From positions 1,550,001 to 1,614,000 of the forward strand of contig AP025582.1 in assembly GCA_022846075.1 (NCBI GenBank): DNA of 64,000 nt, given 5' to 3'. The position numbers and the translations under genes were made by a program. Under the pieces are notes generated by a model. It made no database searches and was not told the origin of the DNA. It was given only the letters and a program-made list of their open reading frames with translations. The stretch comes from Oscillospiraceae bacterium. Lineage in GTDB: Bacteria; Bacillota; Clostridia; Oscillospirales; Oscillospiraceae. Positions 47,157 to 56,265 of this stretch are shown here, in pieces; position 1 is the stretch's first letter, and every line of letters begins with the position of its first letter.

Positions 47157-48227
47157 TTATTCGCCGGCAGGCCCGGCGGAGTGGTGCATGGACATGGGCT
47201 TGACGTTGAAGTTGGAGCGGTACTCCGTCTCATGCCAGAAGATATCCTCGGCCACCAGGCACTCGGGGTTGAGTTCCACCCCGTCCAGAATGATCTCCTT
47301 GAACTTCTTGTAGCCCGCCCGGTCGATGAGGTGCCCGCCGTGGAGGTACTCGGGCTTGTAGTCCATGACCCAGGCGGAGAACTTCTGCCAGTTTTTGAGG
47401 ACTCCCAGCACCACGTCCTCGGTGGCCCAGTTGAGGAACATCTTGCCCGTGCGGGGGGTCTGGCGGCCGGTACGTCCCCCCAGGATGACCCGGTAGAATT
47501 TGGCCTCCTGCCGGGTCCACGCGCTGGCGGGGCAGGCCCGGACGCACTCGCCGCAGCCCACGCAGCAGCAGGGGTCCTTCTCAATCTTGCCGGTGTCCTG
47601 GTTGAGGGAGAGGACCCGGGTGGCGCCGTGCTCGCAGGCGGTGACACAGGCCCCGCAGCCGATGCACCGCTCGGGGTGGTAAGTCATGCGGGCCACGCCG
47701 ATGATGCCGAAGTCGCACAGGTGGGCCTTGTTGCAGTCGTTGGGGCAGCCGGCGATATTGATCTTGATGTGGTAGTGACTGGGGAAGATGATGGGCTCGA
47801 TCTTCCGGGCCAACTCGAAGGTGTTGCAGTTGCCGCAGATGCAGTGGTAGTTGCCCACACAGGCGGTGATGTTCCGGGCGCCGATGGTGGGGTAGCCGCT
47901 CTTGGGGTCCCAGGGCTGGGGCTCATGGGCCACGGTGTCCATGTCCACGCCGCACAGCTCCTCGTCCACCTCCTGGATATAGTCCTTCAGATAGGCGTTG
48001 ACGGCGGGGATGTCCTCGTATTTGATGCCGGTGATGTCGAAGGTCTGGCGGGTGCCGAAGTGGAAGTTCCCGTCCCCCCAGGTCTTGGCGATGTGCTCGA
48101 TGGTGGAGAGGTACTTGGCGTCCACCATGCCGCCGGGGACCCGCATCTGGAGCATGAACTCGCCGGGGACCTTGGACTGGCGGAAGCAGTTGAGCCGCAG
48201 CTTTTTGATATTGATGTCGTGATTCAT
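47157..48227 (-). CDS. asrC: Anaerobic sulfite reductase subunit C
   Basis: A 356-aa catalytic subunit reducing sulfite to sulfide. The siroheme/4Fe-4S ligands are in CICGNCNTFELARK and NIAGCPNDCNKAHLCD. Two ferredoxin clusters follow: CIGCGACVTACEH and CVGCGECVRACP. ATG at 48227 (MNHDINIKKL) is chosen, with GGAGGGG nearby; an ATG five codons earlier is possible. It forms a unit with asrB (14-base gap) and asrA. Confidence 0.95.
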   Translation of the reverse strand: MNHDINIKKLRLNCFRQSKVPGEFMLQMRVPGGMVDAKYLSTIEHIAKTWGDGNFHFGTRQTFDITGIKYEDIPAVNAYLKDYIQEVDEELCGVDMDTVAHEPQPWDPKSGYPTIGARNITACVGNYHCICGNCNTFELARKIEPIIFPSHYHIKINIAGCPNDCNKAHLCDFGIIGVARMTYHPERCIGCGACVTACEHGATRVLSLNQDTGKIEKDPCCCVGCGECVRACPASAWTRQEAKFYRVILGGRTGRQTPRTGKMFLNWATEDVVLGVLKNWQKFSAWVMDYKPEYLHGGHLIDRAGYKKFKEIILDGVELNPECLVAEDIFWHETEYRSNFNVKPMSMHHSAGPAGE

Positions 48228-48241
48228 TCTCTGCCCCTCCA

Positions 48242-49033
48242 TCAGTCCACCAGGTCCCGGGCTGCGGTGTAGGGAAACACCGGCCCGTCCAGGCAGACAT
48301 AGACCTCGTCGATGCGGCAGTGGCCGCATTTGCCCACCGCGCAGGACATCTTCCGCTCGAAGCTCATCCACATTTTGTCCGGGTCGGCCCCGCATTTGAC
48401 CAGCTCCAGGCCGGTGAACTTCATCATGGGTGGCGGGCCTACCACCACGACGGCGTAGCTGCCGCCGAACCGGTCGAAGGGGATCTCCTTGACAAACTCG
48501 GTGACGAAGCCGGTGCGCCAGCCCTCCTTGTGGTCGGTGTCCAGGGCATAGGTGGTGTGGAACTTCTTTTCCCACTCCTCCAGCTCGTGTTGAAAGACGA
48601 TGCCCTCCTCGTTTTTGAAGCCGCAGATGAGGTGTACGTCCTCCACCAGGCCGGGCTCATCGGCGCAGGCCCGGAGCAGGGAGCGGACGGGGGCCAGGCC
48701 GGTGCCGCCGGTGATGACCACCAGATGCTTGCCCCGGAACTGATCCAGGGGCCAGCCCTTGCCGTAGGGGCCCCGGAGGAAGAGGGTGTCCCCCGCCTCT
48801 TTCTGAAAGATCACGTTGGTGACCTTGCCCACGCTGCGGATGGTAAACTCCAGCCAGCCATCCCCCTGGGCGGAGACGGAAATGGGGGCCTCCCCCACCT
48901 TGGGGATGGAGAGCTGCATGAACTGGCCGTGCTGGGGGTTGGCGTCGGTGGCCACCCGGAAGGTCCACTCGTGGGCGCTCTCCTTCTTTACGCTGAGGAT
49001 GGTGCAGGGCTGGGGCTGAACAGGATTTTTCAT
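48242..49033 (-). CDS. asrB: Anaerobic sulfite reductase subunit B
   Basis: A 263-aa FAD/NAD(P)H electron-entry subunit of the dihydroorotate dehydrogenase electron-transfer type. VVITGGTGLAPVRSLL binds nucleotide, and CAVGKCGHCRID with the later VCLDGPVF supplies a 2Fe-2S site. ATG at 49033 follows AAGGACGGTGA. It starts five bases after asrA ends. Confidence 0.94.
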   Translation of the reverse strand: MKNPVQPQPCTILSVKKESAHEWTFRVATDANPQHGQFMQLSIPKVGEAPISVSAQGDGWLEFTIRSVGKVTNVIFQKEAGDTLFLRGPYGKGWPLDQFRGKHLVVITGGTGLAPVRSLLRACADEPGLVEDVHLICGFKNEEGIVFQHELEEWEKKFHTTYALDTDHKEGWRTGFVTEFVKEIPFDRFGGSYAVVVVGPPPMMKFTGLELVKCGADPDKMWMSFERKMSCAVGKCGHCRIDEVYVCLDGPVFPYTAARDLVD

Positions 49034-49038
49034 GGGGC

Positions 49039-50082
49039 TCACCGTCCTTCCTTGGCCAGATCGGCCTTGATCTCGTCCACGGCGGCGTTGACCTTGTTCA
49101 CCGTGGCGGAGAGGGAAATCAACTCCGGGCAGCGGTGGGTGCAGCGGCCGCAGCCCACGCACATGTGGCTGTCCCCGAAGCGGGCTTTGTAGTCGTGGAA
49201 CTTGTGGAGCACCTTGTAGCGCATCCGGTCCCCGGCGGTGGAGCGGAACTCCTTCTGCCCGGCCATCTGGTCGAAGCCGGCGATCTGGCAGGAGGCGGAC
49301 ACCCGCCGGCGCTCGCCCACCTCCGGGTTGTCGCCGTAGCAGACATCCCGGGTGGTGAAGCAGGTACAGGTGGAGCAGGCCACGGTGCAGCTGCCGCAGG
49401 AGATGCACCGCTTGTCGAACTCCTTCCACATGGGGTGCTTTTTCAAGGCCTGGCGTACCGCCTTGTCGGAGAGGTCGGGGATCTCCACCTTCAGCTCGTT
49501 CTCCTCCACGAAGGCGGGTATGTATTCCCCCTGGGGCATTCCGCCGAAGTAGGGGGCGAAGGCGGGATCGGCCACCTGGACGGATACGCCGTCGTGGGAG
49601 AATCGGAGGGCCAGGGCGTAGTCGTCGGTTTTATTGGTGCCCATGGAGACGCAGAAGCAGGTGTCGTCCCCGCCGCCGCACTCCATCATGGCGAAATGGA
49701 CCTGTTCCCGCATCCGCTGGTAGTAGAAGTCGTCGTACCCGCCGTTTCCGGCGTAAATTTTGGCCTGGATGTGCTGGGCGTTGATGTCGCAGGGCCGGGC
49801 CAGGATCAGAATGGGCTTGGTGGGCCCCTTGCTGGCGCGGTACTCATCCTCTGTGAAGTAGAAGATGGCCTGCTGGATGGGGGAGAGGACCTCCTTGGCG
49901 GGATAGTCCGATTTAACCTCCCACACGATGTCCCCGAACCGCTCTACCTCGGCGTAACGGATCACGTCGGTGTCGGAATAGCGGCCCTGTTTGGGGAACC
50001 GCTTGGGGGCGTATACGCGGTAGTCTTTTCGCAAAGCGCTCAGCACTTGGTCAGCCTGGGCGGCGTTCAGGCAATAGCCCAT
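49039..50082 (-). CDS. asrA: Anaerobic sulfite reductase subunit A
   Basis: A 347-aa Fe-S electron carrier. Two 4Fe-4S motifs, CISCGSCTVACSTC and CVGCGRCTHRCP, occur in the C-terminal half. ATG at 50082 has GGAGGT 7 bases upstream and gives exactly the length known for Salmonella AsrA; the upstream ATG at 50112 would add ten residues. First gene of asrABC. Confidence 0.94.
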   Translation of the reverse strand: MGYCLNAAQADQVLSALRKDYRVYAPKRFPKQGRYSDTDVIRYAEVERFGDIVWEVKSDYPAKEVLSPIQQAIFYFTEDEYRASKGPTKPILILARPCDINAQHIQAKIYAGNGGYDDFYYQRMREQVHFAMMECGGGDDTCFCVSMGTNKTDDYALALRFSHDGVSVQVADPAFAPYFGGMPQGEYIPAFVEENELKVEIPDLSDKAVRQALKKHPMWKEFDKRCISCGSCTVACSTCTCFTTRDVCYGDNPEVGERRRVSASCQIAGFDQMAGQKEFRSTAGDRMRYKVLHKFHDYKARFGDSHMCVGCGRCTHRCPELISLSATVNKVNAAVDEIKADLAKEGR

Positions 50083-50142
50083 CCTGCAAACCTCCATATT
50101 TGTCAATTCCAATGAGTCCCATTTTTCTGTTTTGGTACGCTC

Positions 50143-50196
50143 ATTCTAGCATAGGACCAGTATCAAGAAAAATTAGGGTTTGTTATTGTCCAATAA
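50143..50196 (-). promoter_or_regulatory. asrABC promoter with upstream palindrome
   Basis: On the minus strand an extended -10, TGCTAGAAT (-10 at 50143-50148), lacks a good -35. About 40 bases further upstream the perfect palindrome TTATTG-TC-CAATAA (50183-50196) is centred near -53. This arrangement suits a LysR-type activator such as the adjacent regulator. Confidence 0.55.
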
Positions 50197-50216
50197 TATT
50201 TTGTGATTGATAGAAA

Positions 50217-50245
50217 GATGCCCCGGGCTCTTTGCCCGGGGCATC
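50217..50245 (-). terminator. Terminator of LysR gene
   Basis: GATGCCCCGGGC (50217-50228) pairs with GCCCGGGGCATC (50234-50245), then CTTTCT on the minus strand. Confidence 0.75.
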
Positions 50246-50249
50246 TCCT

Positions 50250-51134
50250 TTATTGATTTCCGCACAGCTCGGAGAAGAATTGGCGGAATTCCGCCGCGAA
50301 GGCGCTGCCTTTTCTCCAGAGGAAGGTGAATTCGTGCTCCACGTGAAAATCGGACAATGGCACCTCCCGCAGGGTCCCGGCGGCCAACTCCCGCTCCGCC
50401 GCCCGGCGGTAGAGAAAGGTGATGCCGCAGTCGGCCTTGACCAACTCCTTGATGATGGTCAGATCGCTGATTTCGATGACGTGGCGGAAATCGGCGGGGC
50501 GGAAGTTGCGCTCCTCCAGCACCCGCACCAGCACCTCCCGGGAGCCGGAGCCCGGGTTTCGGAGAATGAGAGTTTCCCCAAACAGGCCCTCCAGGTGAAG
50601 CGGCGCGGGAGGAAGGGGGTGCTCCGCCGCGCAGACGCACACGTAGGGCTCTGTGGTCCAGGGGATGAAATCGTATTCGTCCTTGTGAAAGTACCCCTCC
50701 ACCAGGGCAAAGTCCAGGCGGCCCTCGTCCAGCTCATGGAGCAGGAGCCGGGTGTTCTCCACAAGAAAGTGGACGTCGACCTCGGGGTGGCGCTTCAGAT
50801 ATGCGGCAAGCCTCTGGGGAAGCGCATAGGTTCCGATGGTGAGCGTGGCGCCGAAGCGGAGGGAGCGGGCCCCCTCCCGGCGGGCGGCAAAGTCCCGCTT
50901 GAGTTTTTCCTCGTCATGGAGCATGGCGACTGCGGCATCCCGCAGCATAGCCCCCTCGGCGGTCAGGGCCAGCTGTTTGTTGTGGTAAGTAAACAGTTTG
51001 GCTCCATAGTGCTCCTGGAGATATTGGATGTGCTGGGTAACGGCGGGCTGGGTGACGTTCAGCTTTTCCGCCGCGCGGGTATAGTTGAGACAGCGGCAGA
51101 CCTCCAAGAATGTCTCCATCCGAAAATCCAACAC
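50250..51134 (-). CDS. LysR family transcriptional regulator
   Basis: A 294-aa regulator. The winged-helix motif is CLNYTRAAEKLNVTQPAVTQHIQYLQEHYGAKLF near the N-terminus, and the C-terminal half is a two-lobe effector domain. Translation probably starts at GTG 51134 behind GGGGAGG. It lies upstream of asrABC on the same strand and is the natural candidate regulator, possibly CysB/CysL-like in sensing a sulfur metabolite. That link is positional inference. Confidence 0.87.
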   Translation of the reverse strand: MLDFRMETFLEVCRCLNYTRAAEKLNVTQPAVTQHIQYLQEHYGAKLFTYHNKQLALTAEGAMLRDAAVAMLHDEEKLKRDFAARREGARSLRFGATLTIGTYALPQRLAAYLKRHPEVDVHFLVENTRLLLHELDEGRLDFALVEGYFHKDEYDFIPWTTEPYVCVCAAEHPLPPAPLHLEGLFGETLILRNPGSGSREVLVRVLEERNFRPADFRHVIEISDLTIIKELVKADCGITFLYRRAAERELAAGTLREVPLSDFHVEHEFTFLWRKGSAFAAEFRQFFSELCGNQ

Positions 51135-51159
51135 AGGCAGACGCCTCCCCTCTGGAAAC

Positions 51160-51188: not shown

Positions 51189-51294
51189 AAAATGATGCGT
51201 GTCAAATATGAAAATCCCCAAACCATCCCAATCAGGCAGTTGTTGGAATGGCAGCGGCAGAAGGGCACCGAAACCTGGATGCTTTCTATAATGG

Positions 51295-51335
51295 TGATAT
51301 CATCACAGAGGCGCATCCGCCCCCGTGCTATATTA
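51295..51335 (+). promoter_or_regulatory. Crp/Fnr-type site and class II promoter, copy 1 (ferredoxin unit)
   Basis: GTGAT-ATC-ATCAC (51295-51307, centre 51301) precedes an extended -10, TGCTATATT (-10 at 51330-51335). No -35 consensus is present. The centre is 29 bases before the -10, i.e. about -41, as for a class II activator. TATAAT at 51288-51293 could be a second promoter that the same protein would repress. Confidence 0.65.
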
Positions 51336-51361
51336 TTTTCATCCTGTTTTGGAGGTTTGGT

Positions 51362-51574
51362 ATGGAACTCAAGATCAAAAAAGGGCGAAGGGCCTTTGTT
51401 GACACGGACTGCTGCGTTGCCTGTGGCTGCTGCAAGAAGGTGTGCCCCACGGGGGCCATTGAGATATGGCGGGGAGTAGCGGCGCAGGTGGACCTGGAGA
51501 AGTGCGTAGGCTGCGGCAAATGTACGAAAGAGTGCCCCGCAAGCGTGATCACCATTCAGGAGGCGGCCATATGA
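51362..51574 (+). CDS. 2[4Fe-4S] ferredoxin
   Basis: A 70-aa electron carrier with two cluster motifs, CCVACGCCKKVCP and CVGCGKCTKECP. ATG at 51362 follows TGGAGGTTTGGT. Its stop overlaps the next start (ATGA), so it is co-translated with the membrane Fe-S protein and probably passes electrons to or from it. Confidence 0.88.
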   Translation: MELKIKKGRRAFVDTDCCVACGCCKKVCPTGAIEIWRGVAAQVDLEKCVGCGKCTKECPASVITIQEAAI

Positions 51575-52146
51575 AAAAGCGTTGGTATGACTATCTTTGG
51601 ATCGTGTCCCTGGCCTATCTGATCCTGGGTTTCTTCAATATTTTATTTGCCTGGGCCGGTCTCTTGTGCTTTTTTATTCCCCTGCTCATCTCTGTGACCA
51701 GGGGGACGAAGGCGTACTGCAACCACTACTGTGGCCGGGGACAGCTCTTCAGCCTGCTGGGCGGCCGGTTTGGCCTGTCCCGTAAAAAAGATGTCCCCGG
51801 ATGGATGAAAAGCAAATGGTTCCGCTATGGATTCCTGATCTTCTTTTTCGCTATGTTCTTCCTTATGCTGTGGAATACCTATCTGGTTTTTGCCGGCTCG
51901 GCAGATTTGAAGCAGGTGGTGACGCTGCTGTGGACCTTTAAGCTGCCCTGGCAGTGGGCATACCACGGAACCTTGTTTCATCCGGGCGTGGCCCAATTCG
52001 CCTTTGGCTTCTACAGCGTCATGCTGACCTCCACCGTCCTCGGTTTTCTGACGATGGTGCTGTTTAAACCCCGGAGCTGGTGTGTCTACTGCCCGATGGG
52101 GACCATGACGCAGCTGATCTGCAAAGTAAAAACGGCGTCTGAATAA
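51571..52146 (+). CDS. Membrane 4Fe-4S-binding protein (NapH/polyferredoxin-like)
   Basis: A 191-aa protein with about five hydrophobic segments. Cys-rich loops are CNHYCGRGQLFS (about 50-61) and CVYCPMGTMTQ near the C-terminus, the pattern of NapH/NosR/CcoG-like quinol- or membrane-linked Fe-S proteins. The extra C-terminal ferredoxin domain of larger members is missing; the upstream soluble ferredoxin may replace it. ATG overlaps the ferredoxin stop. Confidence 0.8.
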   Translation: MKKRWYDYLWIVSLAYLILGFFNILFAWAGLLCFFIPLLISVTRGTKAYCNHYCGRGQLFSLLGGRFGLSRKKDVPGWMKSKWFRYGFLIFFFAMFFLMLWNTYLVFAGSADLKQVVTLLWTFKLPWQWAYHGTLFHPGVAQFAFGFYSVMLTSTVLGFLTMVLFKPRSWCVYCPMGTMTQLICKVKTASE

Positions 52147-52150
52147 ACCG

Positions 52151-52187
52151 GCCGCTCCCGCCTGGTCTTATGCCAAGAGGGAGCGGC
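52151..52187 (+). terminator. Weak terminator-like hairpin
   Basis: GCCGCTCCC (52151-52159) pairs with GGGAGCGGC (52179-52187) around a 19-base loop; no U-run. Confidence 0.4.
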
Positions 52188-52242
52188 TTACGGCAGCGGC
52201 CCTCGGAGGGCGCATAGGAACTGGGGCCATGATTACCTAAAT

Positions 52243-52283
52243 GTGACAATGTCACGGAAAGCCTGAGCCAAGTCAGGTATTAT
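52243..52283 (+). promoter_or_regulatory. Crp/Fnr-type site and class II promoter, copy 2 (thioredoxin unit)
   Basis: GTGAC-AAT-GTCAC (52243-52255, centre 52249), followed by GGAAA, then -10 TATTAT (52278-52283). The spacing from centre to -10 is 29 bases, identical to copies 1 and 3. Confidence 0.68.
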
Positions 52284-52319
52284 GAATCCAGAAAACACAA
52301 GGAACAGGAGGGCAAGAAC

Positions 52320-52625
52320 ATGTCTGCGATCCATATCCATAAAAACAACTTTCACGCCGAGGTCATTGATTCTGATAAGCCCGTCTTGCTGGACTTCTGG
52401 GCCCCCTGGTGCGGCCCCTGCCGGATGGTCGGGCCGCTGGTGGAGGAGATTGCCGGGGAGCGCGCCGACATCAAAGTGGGCAAGGTCAATGTGGATGAAG
52501 AGCGGGAGCTGGCCGCACGGTTTCAAATCACCAGTATTCCCACGCTGATGGTCTTCAAGAAGGGAAAAATCGTCAGCCAGGCCATGGGGGCCAGACCCAA
52601 GCAGCAGATCCTCGCCATGCTTTGA
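52320..52625 (+). CDS. Thioredoxin
   Basis: A 101-aa thiol-disulfide protein with the canonical active site FWAPWCGPC (Cys31 and Cys34) and the cis-Pro in TSIPTLMVF. ATG has AGGAGGG upstream. First gene of a unit with the DsrE-like and CoA-binding-like genes, under a Crp/Fnr-type site. Confidence 0.94.
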   Translation: MSAIHIHKNNFHAEVIDSDKPVLLDFWAPWCGPCRMVGPLVEEIAGERADIKVGKVNVDEERELAARFQITSIPTLMVFKKGKIVSQAMGARPKQQILAML

Positions 52626-52669
52626 GCGCCGGGCAGCGGATATTAACGTTATTTAAGGAGTTGAGCGGA

Positions 52670-53041
52670 ATGAAGCAAACTGATTTTGTGGTCACCCTTT
52701 TTGAGGGGAAAGAAAATCCGAACAATCTGACCGTGGCGGTGGTCATGGGGGTCAATGCGCTGAAACAGGGGCACAGCGCCAGCATCATCCTCATGGTGGA
52801 CGCCGTGGCGCTGGGTCAGCCGGACGCCGCGAAGGGCGTGGACATTGGAGCCCCCTTCCCGGAGGCGGGCGGCCAGTTGGAGGAGTTCCTGCGGCTGGGT
52901 GGTCAGGTGTGTATCTGCAACGCCTGCATGGAACACAACGGCTTTACGGCGGAGCAGATGGACAAACGCTATGTGCTGATCAACGCGCCCGATGTGGTGA
53001 GCCTGCTGATGGGGGCGAAGGGCTCCCTGCAGATCACGTAA
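52670..53041 (+). CDS. DsrE-like sulfur-relay family protein
   Basis: A 123-aa protein of the DsrE/DsrF fold: KENPNNLTVAVVMGVNALKQGHSASIILMVDAVAL is the typical beta-alpha-beta core. The likely active cysteines are in QVCICNACMEHNG. DsrE-type proteins pass persulfide sulfur between partners. ATG at 52670 follows AAGGAGTTGAGCGGA. The thioredoxin just upstream could reduce or desulfurate it. Confidence 0.8.
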   Translation: MKQTDFVVTLFEGKENPNNLTVAVVMGVNALKQGHSASIILMVDAVALGQPDAAKGVDIGAPFPEAGGQLEEFLRLGGQVCICNACMEHNGFTAEQMDKRYVLINAPDVVSLLMGAKGSLQIT

Positions 53042-53071
53042 ACCACAGGAAGAAAAACAGGGGGGAACAGA

Positions 53072-53431
53072 ATGGAATTGCCGCAAGTCATGGAACAAAA
53101 ATCCTTTGTCATCGTGGGAGATACGCTGAACGAGGAGAAGTACGCCAGCAAGATCAAGCGGGCGATGATGGAGCATGGTTATCAGGTCCAATGCGTTGGA
53201 AAGGAACTGCGGTCCATCAACGACGTCTCCGGCGAGATTGACATTATCGACCTGTGCATCCGGGCGGACAAGGGGCTAGCGCTGCTTCAGGAATGCCAAA
53301 AGGCTTTTAAAAGCGTGGTCATTCAGCCGGGAGCCTCCAGCGAGGCGCTTATTCAGTACCTCAATGAGCACAACATCCCGTACATAGACGGATGCCTCCT
53401 CGTGGGGTTGAAGCTGTATCAATCGCAATAA
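53072..53431 (+). CDS. CoA-binding-like domain protein
   Basis: A 119-aa Rossmann-type protein like YccU/CoA-binding 2 proteins: SFVIVGDTLNEEKYASKIKRAMMEHGYQV at the start, VVIQPGASSEALIQYLNEHNIP and a closing GCLLVGL. The ligand could be CoA or a related thiol; the function is unknown. Last gene of the thioredoxin-DsrE unit. The gap that follows (53432-53520) holds an imperfect AAAGCAC/GTGCTTT stem. Confidence 0.72.
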   Translation: MELPQVMEQKSFVIVGDTLNEEKYASKIKRAMMEHGYQVQCVGKELRSINDVSGEIDIIDLCIRADKGLALLQECQKAFKSVVIQPGASSEALIQYLNEHNIPYIDGCLLVGLKLYQSQ

Positions 53432-53520
53432 GAAAAGCACCAGGCGCCGCCTGTGCAGCATCCAGTGCTTTCCTGTGAGGTGAGCGGCCGGGATGGAACA
53501 GCAGCCTCACCCTGTGTGTC

Positions 53521-54180
53521 CTATTTTCCGGCCAATCGTTCAAGCCGTTTTGTGTCTACGATTTCCACAGTCCCCCGGGCCAGGCTCACCATGCCTTCGT
53601 TTTGAAAATAGCGGAGCATCCGGGTGACCACTTCCCGGGCGTTGCCCAGGTGATTGCCAATGACCTCGTGGGTGATTTTCAGGCAGTTTGTCCCTTCAAT
53701 GACCGCTTCCTCCAGCAGGAAGGCGGCAAGCCGCCGGTCAAAACTCTTCCACATGATCTGCTCAATGAGCCACATGACCTCGGAAAACCGTGAGGCCATG
53801 ATCTCATTGGTGTAATTGGCCATCGGCGCCGACTGCTCCATCACCTGCTGGTAGACCTGCGCCGGGATGACCCAAAACTGCGAATCCTTCTCCGCCTCAA
53901 TGGTGATCTCAAACTGTATGCTCCGCATCATGCAGGACGCGGAAAACAGGCAGACGTCCCGTTCAAACAGCCGGTAGATCGTGATCTCCCTGCCTTCGTC
54001 TGAGAGAATGTACGCTCGGAGCTGACCGGAGGAGATCAGCAAAAGGCCCAGGCAGTCCGTGGACCCGTTATGGATGACCGTGCCCTTTTTGACATCCTGG
54101 CGGACAGCGGACCCGGTAAGCATAGACTGCTGTTGTGCCGTCATTTGATCCCAGACTGGAAAATAACTTGAGATATCCAA
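53521..54180 (-). CDS. Crp/Fnr family transcriptional regulator
   Basis: A 219-aa regulator with an N-terminal cyclic-nucleotide-like beta-roll, a dimer helix (about 110-140) and a C-terminal helix-turn-helix. The recognition helix reads NAREVVTRMLRYF. The R-E-x-x-x-R spacing equals that of CRP, which reads GTGA half-sites. There is no N-terminal Fnr cysteine cluster, but Cys43, Cys77 and Cys83 in the effector domain could sense redox state. TTG at 54180 follows AGGAGGTG by 8 bases and gives the family's usual length. It is flanked by the three units that carry matching sites. Confidence 0.88.
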   Translation of the reverse strand: MDISSYFPVWDQMTAQQQSMLTGSAVRQDVKKGTVIHNGSTDCLGLLLISSGQLRAYILSDEGREITIYRLFERDVCLFSASCMMRSIQFEITIEAEKDSQFWVIPAQVYQQVMEQSAPMANYTNEIMASRFSEVMWLIEQIMWKSFDRRLAAFLLEEAVIEGTNCLKITHEVIGNHLGNAREVVTRMLRYFQNEGMVSLARGTVEIVDTKRLERLAGK

Positions 54181-54207
54181 CTCGGCCGCACCTCCTAAAC
54201 GCGCATT

Positions 54208-54236
54208 ATTATAGGTTGTATCAAGGTATCTGTCAA
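54208..54236 (-). promoter_or_regulatory. Consensus promoter of Crp/Fnr regulator
   Basis: Minus strand TTGACA (54231-54236), 17 bases, TATAAT (54208-54213), both perfect. CTGTCA at 54230 and TGACAG at 54252 and 54272 form spaced inverted repeats upstream, possibly for autoregulation. Confidence 0.8.
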
Positions 54237-54437
54237 TTATCCATTGACGTATGACAGAAAAGTTGCTATTCTGACAGGGAAAATAGAAAAGAAAATATGT
54301 GTTCAGGTAATCCGGGGCCGGCAGGTGGGGAAACAAGTGTCCCCGCAGGCAAAGAAGTCCCGGCAGTTATGAACAAACGAGATAAAATAGTCCGCTTGAA
54401 AAAAGACGGCTTATAAAAATAATTTGGAGGTATCACT

Positions 54438-54812
54438 ATGGAACAGAAATTCTACATCTGCGAGCACTGCGGAAACATCATTGCGATGGTCAGAGACAAG
54501 GGCGTGCCTGTTATGTGCTGCGGCCAGAAAATGACGGAGATCATTCCCGGCACCACTGACGCCGCCCAGGAAAAGCACGTGCCTGTTTATCAGGTGGAGG
54601 GGGGCAAGGTCCATGTCACGGTAGGCGCGGTGGAGCATCCCATGACCCCGGAGCACTATATTGAGTGGGTGTCGCTCCAGACCAAGCAGGGCAATCAACG
54701 CAAGGCCCTGAAGCCCGGCGAGTCTCCGAAGGTATGCTTCTCCATTTGTGAGGGAGACGAGGTGGAAGCCGTCTACGCCTACTGCAATCTGCACAGCCTT
54801 TGGAAGGCCTGA
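54438..54812 (+). CDS. Desulfoferrodoxin, second copy
   Basis: A 124-aa superoxide reductase. Desulforedoxin site: Cys8, Cys11, Cys27 and Cys28. Catalytic iron site: EKHVPV, EHPM, EHYI and CNLHSLW. It is clearly paralogous to the gene at 30408 but with a different N-terminus (MEQKFYIC). ATG follows TTTGGAGG. No GTGAY-type site was found in its roughly 100-base leader; it seems to be transcribed alone. Confidence 0.92.
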   Translation: MEQKFYICEHCGNIIAMVRDKGVPVMCCGQKMTEIIPGTTDAAQEKHVPVYQVEGGKVHVTVGAVEHPMTPEHYIEWVSLQTKQGNQRKALKPGESPKVCFSICEGDEVEAVYAYCNLHSLWKA

Positions 54813-54878
54813 ACTGAAGCCCAAACCATTACCGCTGATATCTTCGCGGAGAATGATAGACATACAAATGCTCAGACA

Positions 54879-54911
54879 GACTGCCGTGGAGAGGAGAACT
54901 CCACGGCGGTC
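54879..54911 (+). terminator. Terminator of second desulfoferrodoxin
   Basis: GACTGCCGTGGAG (54879-54891) pairs with CTCCACGGCGGTC (54899-54911), then TTTTTT. Confidence 0.88.
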
Positions 54912-54923
54912 TTTTTTATCTAT

Positions 54924-54964
54924 GTGATAATATCACGGAAAAACCGGCGAAAAGAGAATATATT
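54924..54964 (+). promoter_or_regulatory. Crp/Fnr-type site and class II promoter, copy 3 (Trx-TrxB unit)
   Basis: GTGAT-AAT-ATCAC (54924-54936, centre 54930), followed by GGAAA as in copy 2, then -10 TATATT (54959-54964). The centre to -10 distance is again 29 bases. Confidence 0.68.
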
Positions 54965-54996: not shown

Positions 54997-56265
54997 ATGG
55001 CGATTTTGCAAATGAATCATGAAAGCTATAAAAAATATATTGCCGAGTCGGACAAGCCTGTGCTGGTGGAGTTCTGGGCGCCGTGGTGCACCTATTGCCG
55101 CCGCCTGGCTCCGGCGCTGGAGCAGGTTGCGAAGGAGTATGAGGATACTCTGCTCATTGGCCAGGTCAATATCGACGATGAGCCGGAACTGGAGGAAGAA
55201 GAGCAAATTGAGGTGGTCCCCACTCTGCTGCTCTATCAGAACGGCCAGCTCCTGGACTCTATCGTGGCGCCGGAATCCAAGCCGCAGCTGGAAGAATTTA
55301 TCAAGGGATCTCTGAGCAGGCGGGAAACCAGGCAGGAAGAGTCCGGACATATCTATGACATGATCGTTGTGGGCGGCGGTCCCGGAGGATATACGGCGGC
55401 GCTGTACGCGGCCAGAGCCGGTCTTGATACCATCGTCCTGGAAAAGCTGTCCGTTGGGGGGCAGATGGCCCTGACGGAGCAGATCGACAATTACCCCGGC
55501 TTTGAGGACGGTGTGGACGGCTTCACCCTGGGTGAAAAAATGCGGCGGGGCGCAGAGCGGTTCGGAGTAGAGAGCCGGACGACAGAGGTGCTGTCCTTTG
55601 ATTTTTCCAATCAGGTAAAGGCCGTGGAGACCAGTGAGGGGACGCTGCGGGGCAAAACGGTGGTGCTCGCCACCGGGGCCAGCCCCAGGGAATTGGGCCT
55701 GGCCGGGGAGCGGGAACTGGTGAGAAAAGGTGTCAACTACTGCGCCGCTTGTGACGGCATGTTCTACAAGGGGAAAACGGTGGTCGTCGTAGGGGGCGGC
55801 AATACGGCCGCGGCGGATGCCCTCATCCTCTCCCGCATCTGCGAGAAAGTGATCCTCGTCCACCGGCGGGACACGCTGCGGGCCACGAAAATTTACCACG
55901 CCCCCCTGATGGAGGCGAAGAACGTGGAATTCCGCTGGGACAGCGCGGTGACAGAGCTGCTGTCCGACGAAAAGGTGAACGGTGTCCGGCTGCGGAACCT
56001 GAAAACCGGAGAGGAAAGCGTCGTGGCCTGTGACGGCGTATTCGTCAGCGTGGGGAGGAAGCCCGCCACGGAACTGGTAAAGGGAAAAATTGAGCTGGAT
56101 CCCTCTGGCTATGTGGTTGCCGATGAGTCTACCCGCACCAGCGTCCCGGGCGTGTTCGCCGTGGGGGACGTGCGCACCAAGGCGCTGCGGCAGGTGGTGA
56201 CCGCCGTGTCCGACGGCGCCGTGGCGGTCCATTACGCGGAAGAATACCTGGCGGGGGGTATGTGA
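54997..56265 (+). CDS. Thioredoxin-thioredoxin reductase fusion
   Basis: A 422-aa two-domain protein. The N-terminal thioredoxin fold (about 1-105) has the unusual active site WCTYC and cis-Pro in VVPTLLLY. A short charged linker leads to a full thioredoxin reductase: FAD motif VVGGGPGGYTAALYAARAG, redox pair CAACDG, NADPH motif VVVGGGNTAAADA and C-terminal VFAVGDVR. Fusion lets the reductase feed its own thioredoxin domain. ATG at 54997 follows AAAGGAG. Monocistronic, with terminator. Confidence 0.92.
   Translation: MAILQMNHESYKKYIAESDKPVLVEFWAPWCTYCRRLAPALEQVAKEYEDTLLIGQVNIDDEPELEEEEQIEVVPTLLLYQNGQLLDSIVAPESKPQLEEFIKGSLSRRETRQEESGHIYDMIVVGGGPGGYTAALYAARAGLDTIVLEKLSVGGQMALTEQIDNYPGFEDGVDGFTLGEKMRRGAERFGVESRTTEVLSFDFSNQVKAVETSEGTLRGKTVVLATGASPRELGLAGERELVRKGVNYCAACDGMFYKGKTVVVVGGGNTAAADALILSRICEKVILVHRRDTLRATKIYHAPLMEAKNVEFRWDSAVTELLSDEKVNGVRLRNLKTGEESVVACDGVFVSVGRKPATELVKGKIELDPSGYVVADESTRTSVPGVFAVGDVRTKALRQVVTAVSDGAVAVHYAEEYLAGGM

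Follow-up and report, generated by a model that had tools for sequence, protein, structure and literature searches.

A putative Crp/Fnr regulon with five-base-spacer operators at thioredoxin and sulfur-handling genes of an Oscillospiraceae bacterium and its relatives

Analysis of a 64-kb stretch of the genome of an Oscillospiraceae bacterium (GenBank assembly GCA_022846075.1, contig AP025582.1, positions 1,550,001 to 1,614,000; hereafter the window) revealed a gene cluster in which a Crp/Fnr regulator with three conserved cysteines most probably activates three units of redox genes from operators with a five-base spacer, as judged from comparison of sequences. The host genome consists of one contig of 3.23 Mb. 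Unit 1 encodes a ferredoxin and a membrane iron-sulfur (Fe-S) protein, unit 2 a thioredoxin, a DsrE-like protein and a coenzyme A (CoA)-binding protein, and unit 3 a fusion of thioredoxin and thioredoxin reductase (Trx-TrxB). The regulator gene (53521..54180) is located between units 2 and 3 on the minus strand, opposite to these units. A first-pass annotation of the window had proposed that these genes form a local Crp/Fnr regulon whose promoters have class II geometry. This proposal is supported by the conservation of the spacer in relatives, the phasing at -41, the co-occurrence of promoter and regulator, and the uniqueness of the three sites in the genome.

Operators and promoters in the window

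The palindrome GTGAYNNNRTCAC (GTGAY-N3-RTCAC) was found 3 times in the window, versus 0.10 expected, and 0 of 100 shuffles of the window attained 3 matches. All three sites and the promoter elements that go with them are on the plus strand. Operator 1, GTGATATCATCAC, runs from 51294..51306 (centre 51300), operator 2, GTGACAATGTCAC, from 52243..52255 (centre 52249) and operator 3, GTGATAATATCAC, from 54924..54936 (centre 54930). The first-pass annotation had listed the same three palindromes; its positions for the second and third are exact, but the first, given there as 51295-51307, lies one base further to the left. The equal distance that it reported between operator and -10 was borne out, as the first base of the -10 lies 29 bases beyond the centre in all three promoters (51300 to 51329, 52249 to 52278 and 54930 to 54959). 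The -10 elements are TATATT (51329..51334), TATTAT (52278..52283) and TATATT (54959..54964). A CA dinucleotide is present at the expected place in all three, and its A is the predicted transcription start (51341, 52290 and 54971, respectively). A -35 had been described as lacking. This has to be amended, since a conserved RGAA motif occupies positions -34 to -31 in relatives; the window has GGAA at sites 2 and 3 (52256..52259 and 54937..54940) and a weak form, AGAG, at site 1 (51307..51310).

In the host genome GTGA-N5-TCAC (hereafter N5) occurs at 25 sites and the reversed pattern at 9. With both strands read, the match to TATAAT at +29 was 5/6 in the three window sites and at most 3/6 in the other 22 N5 sites; as only 3 of the 25 have a -10 at +29, no wider strict regulon was found in this genome. 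A promoter matrix, which was built from sites of other genomes and not from the window sites, gave 47.7 bits for operator 3, 41.0 bits for operator 2 and 28.5 bits for operator 1, the lowest-scoring of the three. No other position of the window exceeded 8 bits, and 10 resampled windows scored -0.9 at best.

Conservation of spacer and phasing in related genomes

Two sets of loci were compared. The first (A80) was obtained by a contig scan and comprises the best 80 loci among relatives numbering at least 590; their orthologues share 64-75% identity with the regulator, and the loci add up to 1.21 Mb. The second, an even sample of 291 genomes of the class of the window (evidently Clostridia), was drawn independently of the A80 scan. 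From this sample 87 of the 90 regulator matches were taken in (the window's own locus, G113 and G323 were left out) and grouped into A50 (the closest, 50 loci), B (18 loci) and C (19 loci). Some loci of the two sets share contigs (e.g. L092/L180 and L074/L182), and identical sites were dropped in the sequence logo and in the count of targets.

A search for the motif at orthologous regulators, proposed as a check with the first-pass annotation, came out in favour of conservation. In A80, GTGA-Nk-TCAC was found 111 times with k = 5, in 66 of the 80 loci, against 4 times with k = 4 and 14 times with k = 6; other spacers gave 44 (k = 0), 28 (k = 3) and 30 (k = 9) matches, and the reversed control at k = 5 gave 6. 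A50 contained 42 N5 sites in 35 of its 50 loci (N4, 2; N6, 6; N3, 11), and group C had 9 sites with k = 5 and 5 with k = 6. The phasing is kept as well: around the 111 A80 sites TANNNT stood at +29 in 80 oriented readings, followed by 16 (+28), 15 (+34) and 14 (+31), and the even sample likewise peaked at +29, with 34, 5 and 9 readings in groups A, B and C, respectively. The five-base spacer had been taken as the sign of an unusual subtype. The spacer is indeed conserved, but it is not peculiar to the host genome and marks a broader three-cysteine subfamily.

A logo was made of 99 non-redundant sites, chosen for having GTGA/TCAC and, at +29, TANNNT; these columns are 100% by construction. It showed T at -9, Y/R within the half-sites, an RGAA motif over positions +7 to +10, and CA at +40/+41 (C 60%, A 85%); Y/R, RGAA, the inner bases of the -10 and CA had played no part in the choice of sites. 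With the A of the logo as the predicted start, the operator centre is at -41, the -10 begins at -12 and RGAA runs from -34 to -31, within a poor -35 hexamer (CRGAAN) 17 bp from the -10. Class II geometry, with the centre near -41 over a poor -35, is found in both the window sequence and the logo. That RGAA is a piece of a symmetric operator was considered and is disfavoured, as the logo is asymmetric.

The regulator and its cysteines

The regulator (219 aa, recognition helix AREVVTR) belongs to the Crp/Fnr superfamily, with matches to PF00027, PF13545 and PF00325 above the cut-offs (Pfam cNMP_binding and HTH_Crp_2). Its best sequence match in the PDB (E 5.8e-101) and its best fold match (66% identity, TM-score 0.57) are both 3DV8, a putative Crp/Fnr regulator (EUBREC_1222) of Eubacterium rectale from structural genomics. 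The regulator of L091, a locus with three N5 sites, differs from 3DV8 at 4 of 216 aligned positions. The AlphaFold model of the window regulator has a confidence (pLDDT, predicted local distance difference test) of 80 and a predicted TM-score (pTM) of 0.56, residues 78-88 being the least certain (below 50).

With the NCBIfam equivalog model of CRP the protein scored 38.9 bits (cut-off 266) and with the Fnr model 41.9 bits (cut-off 228). The cysteines of the N-terminal cluster of FNR are missing, no Cys being present ahead of C43, and neither the CRP operator GTGA-N6-TCAC nor the HcpR operator TTGTGA-N6-TCACAA agrees with the N5 spacer seen in the window and at orthologues. From the present data we defined a 3DV8-type three-cysteine Crp/Fnr subfamily, whose marks are C43, C77 and C83 together with a +29-phased N5 operator; all of them are found in the window. 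C43 was present in 80/80 A80, 50/50 A50 and 18/18 group B proteins, C77 in 80/80, 49/50 and 18/18 (147/148 in all, a few loci of these three groups being counted twice) and C83 in 80/80, 50/50 and 18/18 (148/148 in all). C77 and C83 are located at the position of the cyclic AMP (cAMP) cassette in CRP, which is also the least certain part of the AlphaFold model. In the recognition helix R182 and E183 were kept in 148/148 and R187 in 146/148 proteins, which suits a GTGA half-site.

A strict phased site was present at 35 of 72 class-sample regulators with all three cysteines vs 1 of 15 without (p 0.003); the single exception, L243, keeps two of the three. Of group C, none of the 13 cysteine-poor loci scored with the matrix, against 5 of the 6 cysteine-bearing ones (L243 included). 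The matrix also recovered 7 of the 24 A50 loci that have no strict phased site, and none of 20 other loci scored.

One related regulator, L023 (G032; 27% identical, without C77 and C83), has one GTGA-N6-TCAC site nearby, at position 951, and is a possible natural contrast in spacing. As a systematic comparison this candidate was dropped, the protein search with L023 having been headed by loci already in the class sample, and L023 remains an anecdote.

Co-occurrence of promoter and regulator, and target genes

For the 291 genomes, presence of the regulator was taken as a match at E 1e-20 or better. The promoter pattern GTGAN5TCACRGAAN17-19TANNNT was found in 39 of the 291 genomes and the reversed pattern in 9. 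It was present in 34 of 82 genomes with the regulator vs 5 of 209 without (p about 1e-16, uncorrected for relatedness); in genomes with the regulator, too, part of the matches seem to be due to chance. The membrane Fe-S gene fits this distribution: its orthologues of G010 and G340, which do not have the regulator, have no N5 site, and those of G024 and G017, which do, have one.

Targets were surveyed at 154 loci (A80 and 74 of the even sample) with 121 unique oriented sites. Of these, 111 precede one of 19 reference genes, compared with 128 of 1200 random positions, and 10 stand ahead of no recognised gene. The target units contained thioredoxin (63), CoA-disulfide-reductase-rhodanese (49), rhodanese (45), TrxB (18), membrane Fe-S (16) and ferredoxin (14) genes, and also desulfoferrodoxin and rubrerythrin genes. 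The reductase of the reductase-rhodanese scored 522 bits, slightly below the curated cut-off for CoA-disulfide reductase (578.8). The recurrence of these sites beside related regulators in many anaerobes suggests that genes for thioredoxin and for the handling of sulfur are under a switch not described so far.

Proposed mechanism and alternative explanations

We propose that a dimer of the regulator would bind GTGAY-N3-RTCAC, which has CRP-type half-sites with their centres 9 bp apart instead of 10. As the GTGA-recognising residues are kept, the shorter spacer would then stem from the geometry of the dimer or of the DNA. Centred at -41, over the poor -35 with its RGAA core, the dimer would act as a class II activator that brings in RNA polymerase, and all three units (ferredoxin/membrane Fe-S, thioredoxin-DsrE-CoA-binding, thioredoxin-TrxB) would be turned on together. 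The signal would be sensed through the cysteines, most likely by their oxidation or persulfidation; both the conservation of the cysteines and the content of the target units suggest a thiol or persulfide sensor.

Several observations weigh against this explanation. The unrelated control TGGA-N5-TCCA matched 48 times in 31 of the 80 A80 loci, with a maximum of 64 at k = 11, and such high control counts mean that raw spacer counts are no proof by themselves. In group B the N5 spacer (5 sites) barely exceeds other spacers (up to 4), a strict phased site is present in only 5 of the 18 loci and 6 of 18 pass the matrix; many members may recognise a different sequence or work at other places. Among three-cysteine loci of the even sample just 35 of 72 have a strict phased site, and L243 has a phased site, yet a Lys at the position of C83. 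The 19 reference genes of the target survey were themselves selected from units behind such sites. Autoregulation in the window was considered and rejected, as the promoter of the regulator itself gave no matrix match above 8 bits; some relatives do have sites ahead of the regulator gene. Finally, binding, activation over repression and the nature of the signal are inferred, and the overlap with the -35 would fit repression as well.

The last point bears on the rival that changes least, in which the same regulator on the same operator blocks RNA polymerase at the -35 and releases upon modification of its cysteines. Some thiol sensors do repress, such as CstR in Enterococcus faecalis (PMC9405070). 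However, a poor -35 (CRGAAN) and a centre held so strictly to -41 are what an activator would call for, whereas a repressor would tolerate other positions; we consider repression unlikely. That another factor binds the palindromes, be it Rex, the neighbouring LysR protein or a Crp/Fnr paralogue, is very improbable. A LysR gene (profile match) adjoins operator 1 and the host genome has three further Crp/Fnr matches, but the pattern co-occurs with this regulator, and the 65 kb of sequence from 19 loci with other Crp/Fnr proteins contained no N5 site. Rex sites have a six-base gap, in contrast to the N5 spacer here. Chance palindromes or terminator-like repeats were rejected as hardly credible: short inverted repeats are common, and the genome has 22 other N5 palindromes, but enrichment in the window, the logo, the matrix scores, and the conservation of spacer and +29 phasing at orthologous promoters all speak against them.

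The remaining alternative concerns the signal alone, and its probability does not add to those of the others. Oxygen, nitric oxide, a metal, heme or an Fe-S cluster, possibly with C43, C77 and C83 as ligands, is a serious possibility, if not the one that we favour. Desulfoferrodoxin, rubrerythrin and ferredoxin genes are among the units of relatives, the first-pass annotation had proposed air or nitric oxide, and heme binding is reported for PgRsp, a Crp/Fnr protein that was modelled on 3DV8 (PMC6955866). Indirect evidence against it is that the commonest targets (thioredoxin, CoA-disulfide-reductase-rhodanese and rhodanese) resemble in content the persulfide-responsive cst-like operon of E. 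faecalis.

Comparison with known systems

The proposed system resembles CRP of Escherichia coli in the GTGA/TCAC half-sites, the R-E-x-x-x-R motif and a class II centre near -41. It differs in the spacer, N6 there and N5 here, and in having conserved cysteines at the place of the cAMP cassette of CRP. In every Crp/Fnr operator consensus known to us the half-sites are one helical turn apart (GTGA-N6-TCAC or equivalent). If true, a conserved five-base spacer would mean an altered geometry of dimer or DNA in a textbook family of activators. A literature search, of imperfect coverage, brought up neither an N5 Crp/Fnr operator nor an account of this regulon. Class II Crp/Fnr regulation is already known, and the N5 operator tied to the three-cysteine subfamily is, as far as this search shows, a new variant.

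CstR belongs to the CsoR family and is not a Crp/Fnr protein. The enzymes under its control are nevertheless like those commonest behind the sites described here: CstR of E. faecalis is a persulfide-sensing dithiol repressor of a cst-like operon with rhodaneses and CoA persulfide reductase (PMC9405070). HcpR of Desulfovibrio is, like the present regulator, a Crp/Fnr protein predicted by comparative genomics, with a GTGA half-site; its operator is TTGTGA-N6-TCACAA and its targets are sulfate-reduction and hcp genes (PMC545781). PgRsp of Porphyromonas gingivalis is described as a redox-linked, heme-binding Crp/Fnr protein that has been assigned to none of the known families and was modelled on 3DV8 (PMC6955866). 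It has a different host and different targets. The only use of 3DV8 found in the literature is as a modelling template, in one paper.

More tentatively, a Crp/Fnr clade widespread in anaerobic Clostridia may have shifted to operators with half-sites 9 bp apart instead of one 10-bp turn, with three thiols replacing the cAMP cassette as a persulfide (sulfane-sulfur) or disulfide sensor; such a clade could be a main activator of thioredoxin, rhodanese and CoA-persulfide-reductase genes in gut anaerobes and, among Crp-type proteins, the counterpart of CstR. The regulon would offer a way to study how stress from thiols and reactive sulfur is perceived and kept in check by anaerobes. With a near-identical regulator of the same family already crystallised (3DV8), docking, binding and footprinting can begin, and the promoter matrix (operator, RGAA, -10 and CA) finds candidate targets directly.

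Genes of the cluster and minor observations

All genes of the three units are on the plus strand. Unit 1 consists of a 2x[4Fe-4S] ferredoxin of 70 aa (51362..51574, Pfam Fer4) and a protein of 191 aa (51571..52146, Pfam Fer4_5) with a membrane location predicted from sequence, whose G024 orthologue has a phased N5 site. In unit 2, the thioredoxin of 101 aa (52320..52625, TIGR01068 above cut-off) is followed by the DsrE-like protein of 123 aa (52670..53041), assigned weakly with Pfam DsrE at 19.5 bits (cut-off 22.7), and a CoA-binding domain protein of 119 aa (53072..53431, Pfam CoA_binding_2). The DsrE-like and CoA-binding genes (52670-53431) clustered with no protein from the units of relatives and none was seen behind the sites of relatives, where rhodanese and reductase-rhodanese often occupy their place. 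Unit 3 is the thioredoxin-thioredoxin reductase fusion of 422 aa (54997..56265, Pfam and TIGR01292). A desulfoferrodoxin gene (54438-54812, profile searches) lies between the regulator and unit 3 and has no operator of its own. Beside the cluster, the region 47157-51140 with the LysR gene resembles an anaerobic sulfite reductase (asr) operon, a possible producer of sulfide.

In 15 genomes of the host genus (G001-G015, several of them incomplete) the best match to the regulator was only E 8.5e-11, and there seems to be no orthologue in them. The cluster may have been gained by the species of the window or lost in other members of the genus. Between L069, L071, L073, L076, L078, L082 and L096 the regulator cluster and neighbouring redox genes are 94-99% identical in DNA over 1-6 kb, and the contigs bear the names Fusibacillus, Oscillibacter, Anaeromassilibacillus, Faecalicatena, Lachnospiraceae, Ruminococcaceae and Mogibacterium. 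This reflects either recent horizontal transfer or contamination of some assemblies.

The half-pattern TCACNGAA-N17..19-TATNNT occurs at 4 further places in the host genome, two of them with identical sequence. L263 and L266 (G000, 1067637 and 3110606) share an identical 33-base stretch, from TCACAGAA to TATTGT, present in two copies in the genome and perhaps part of a repeated element.

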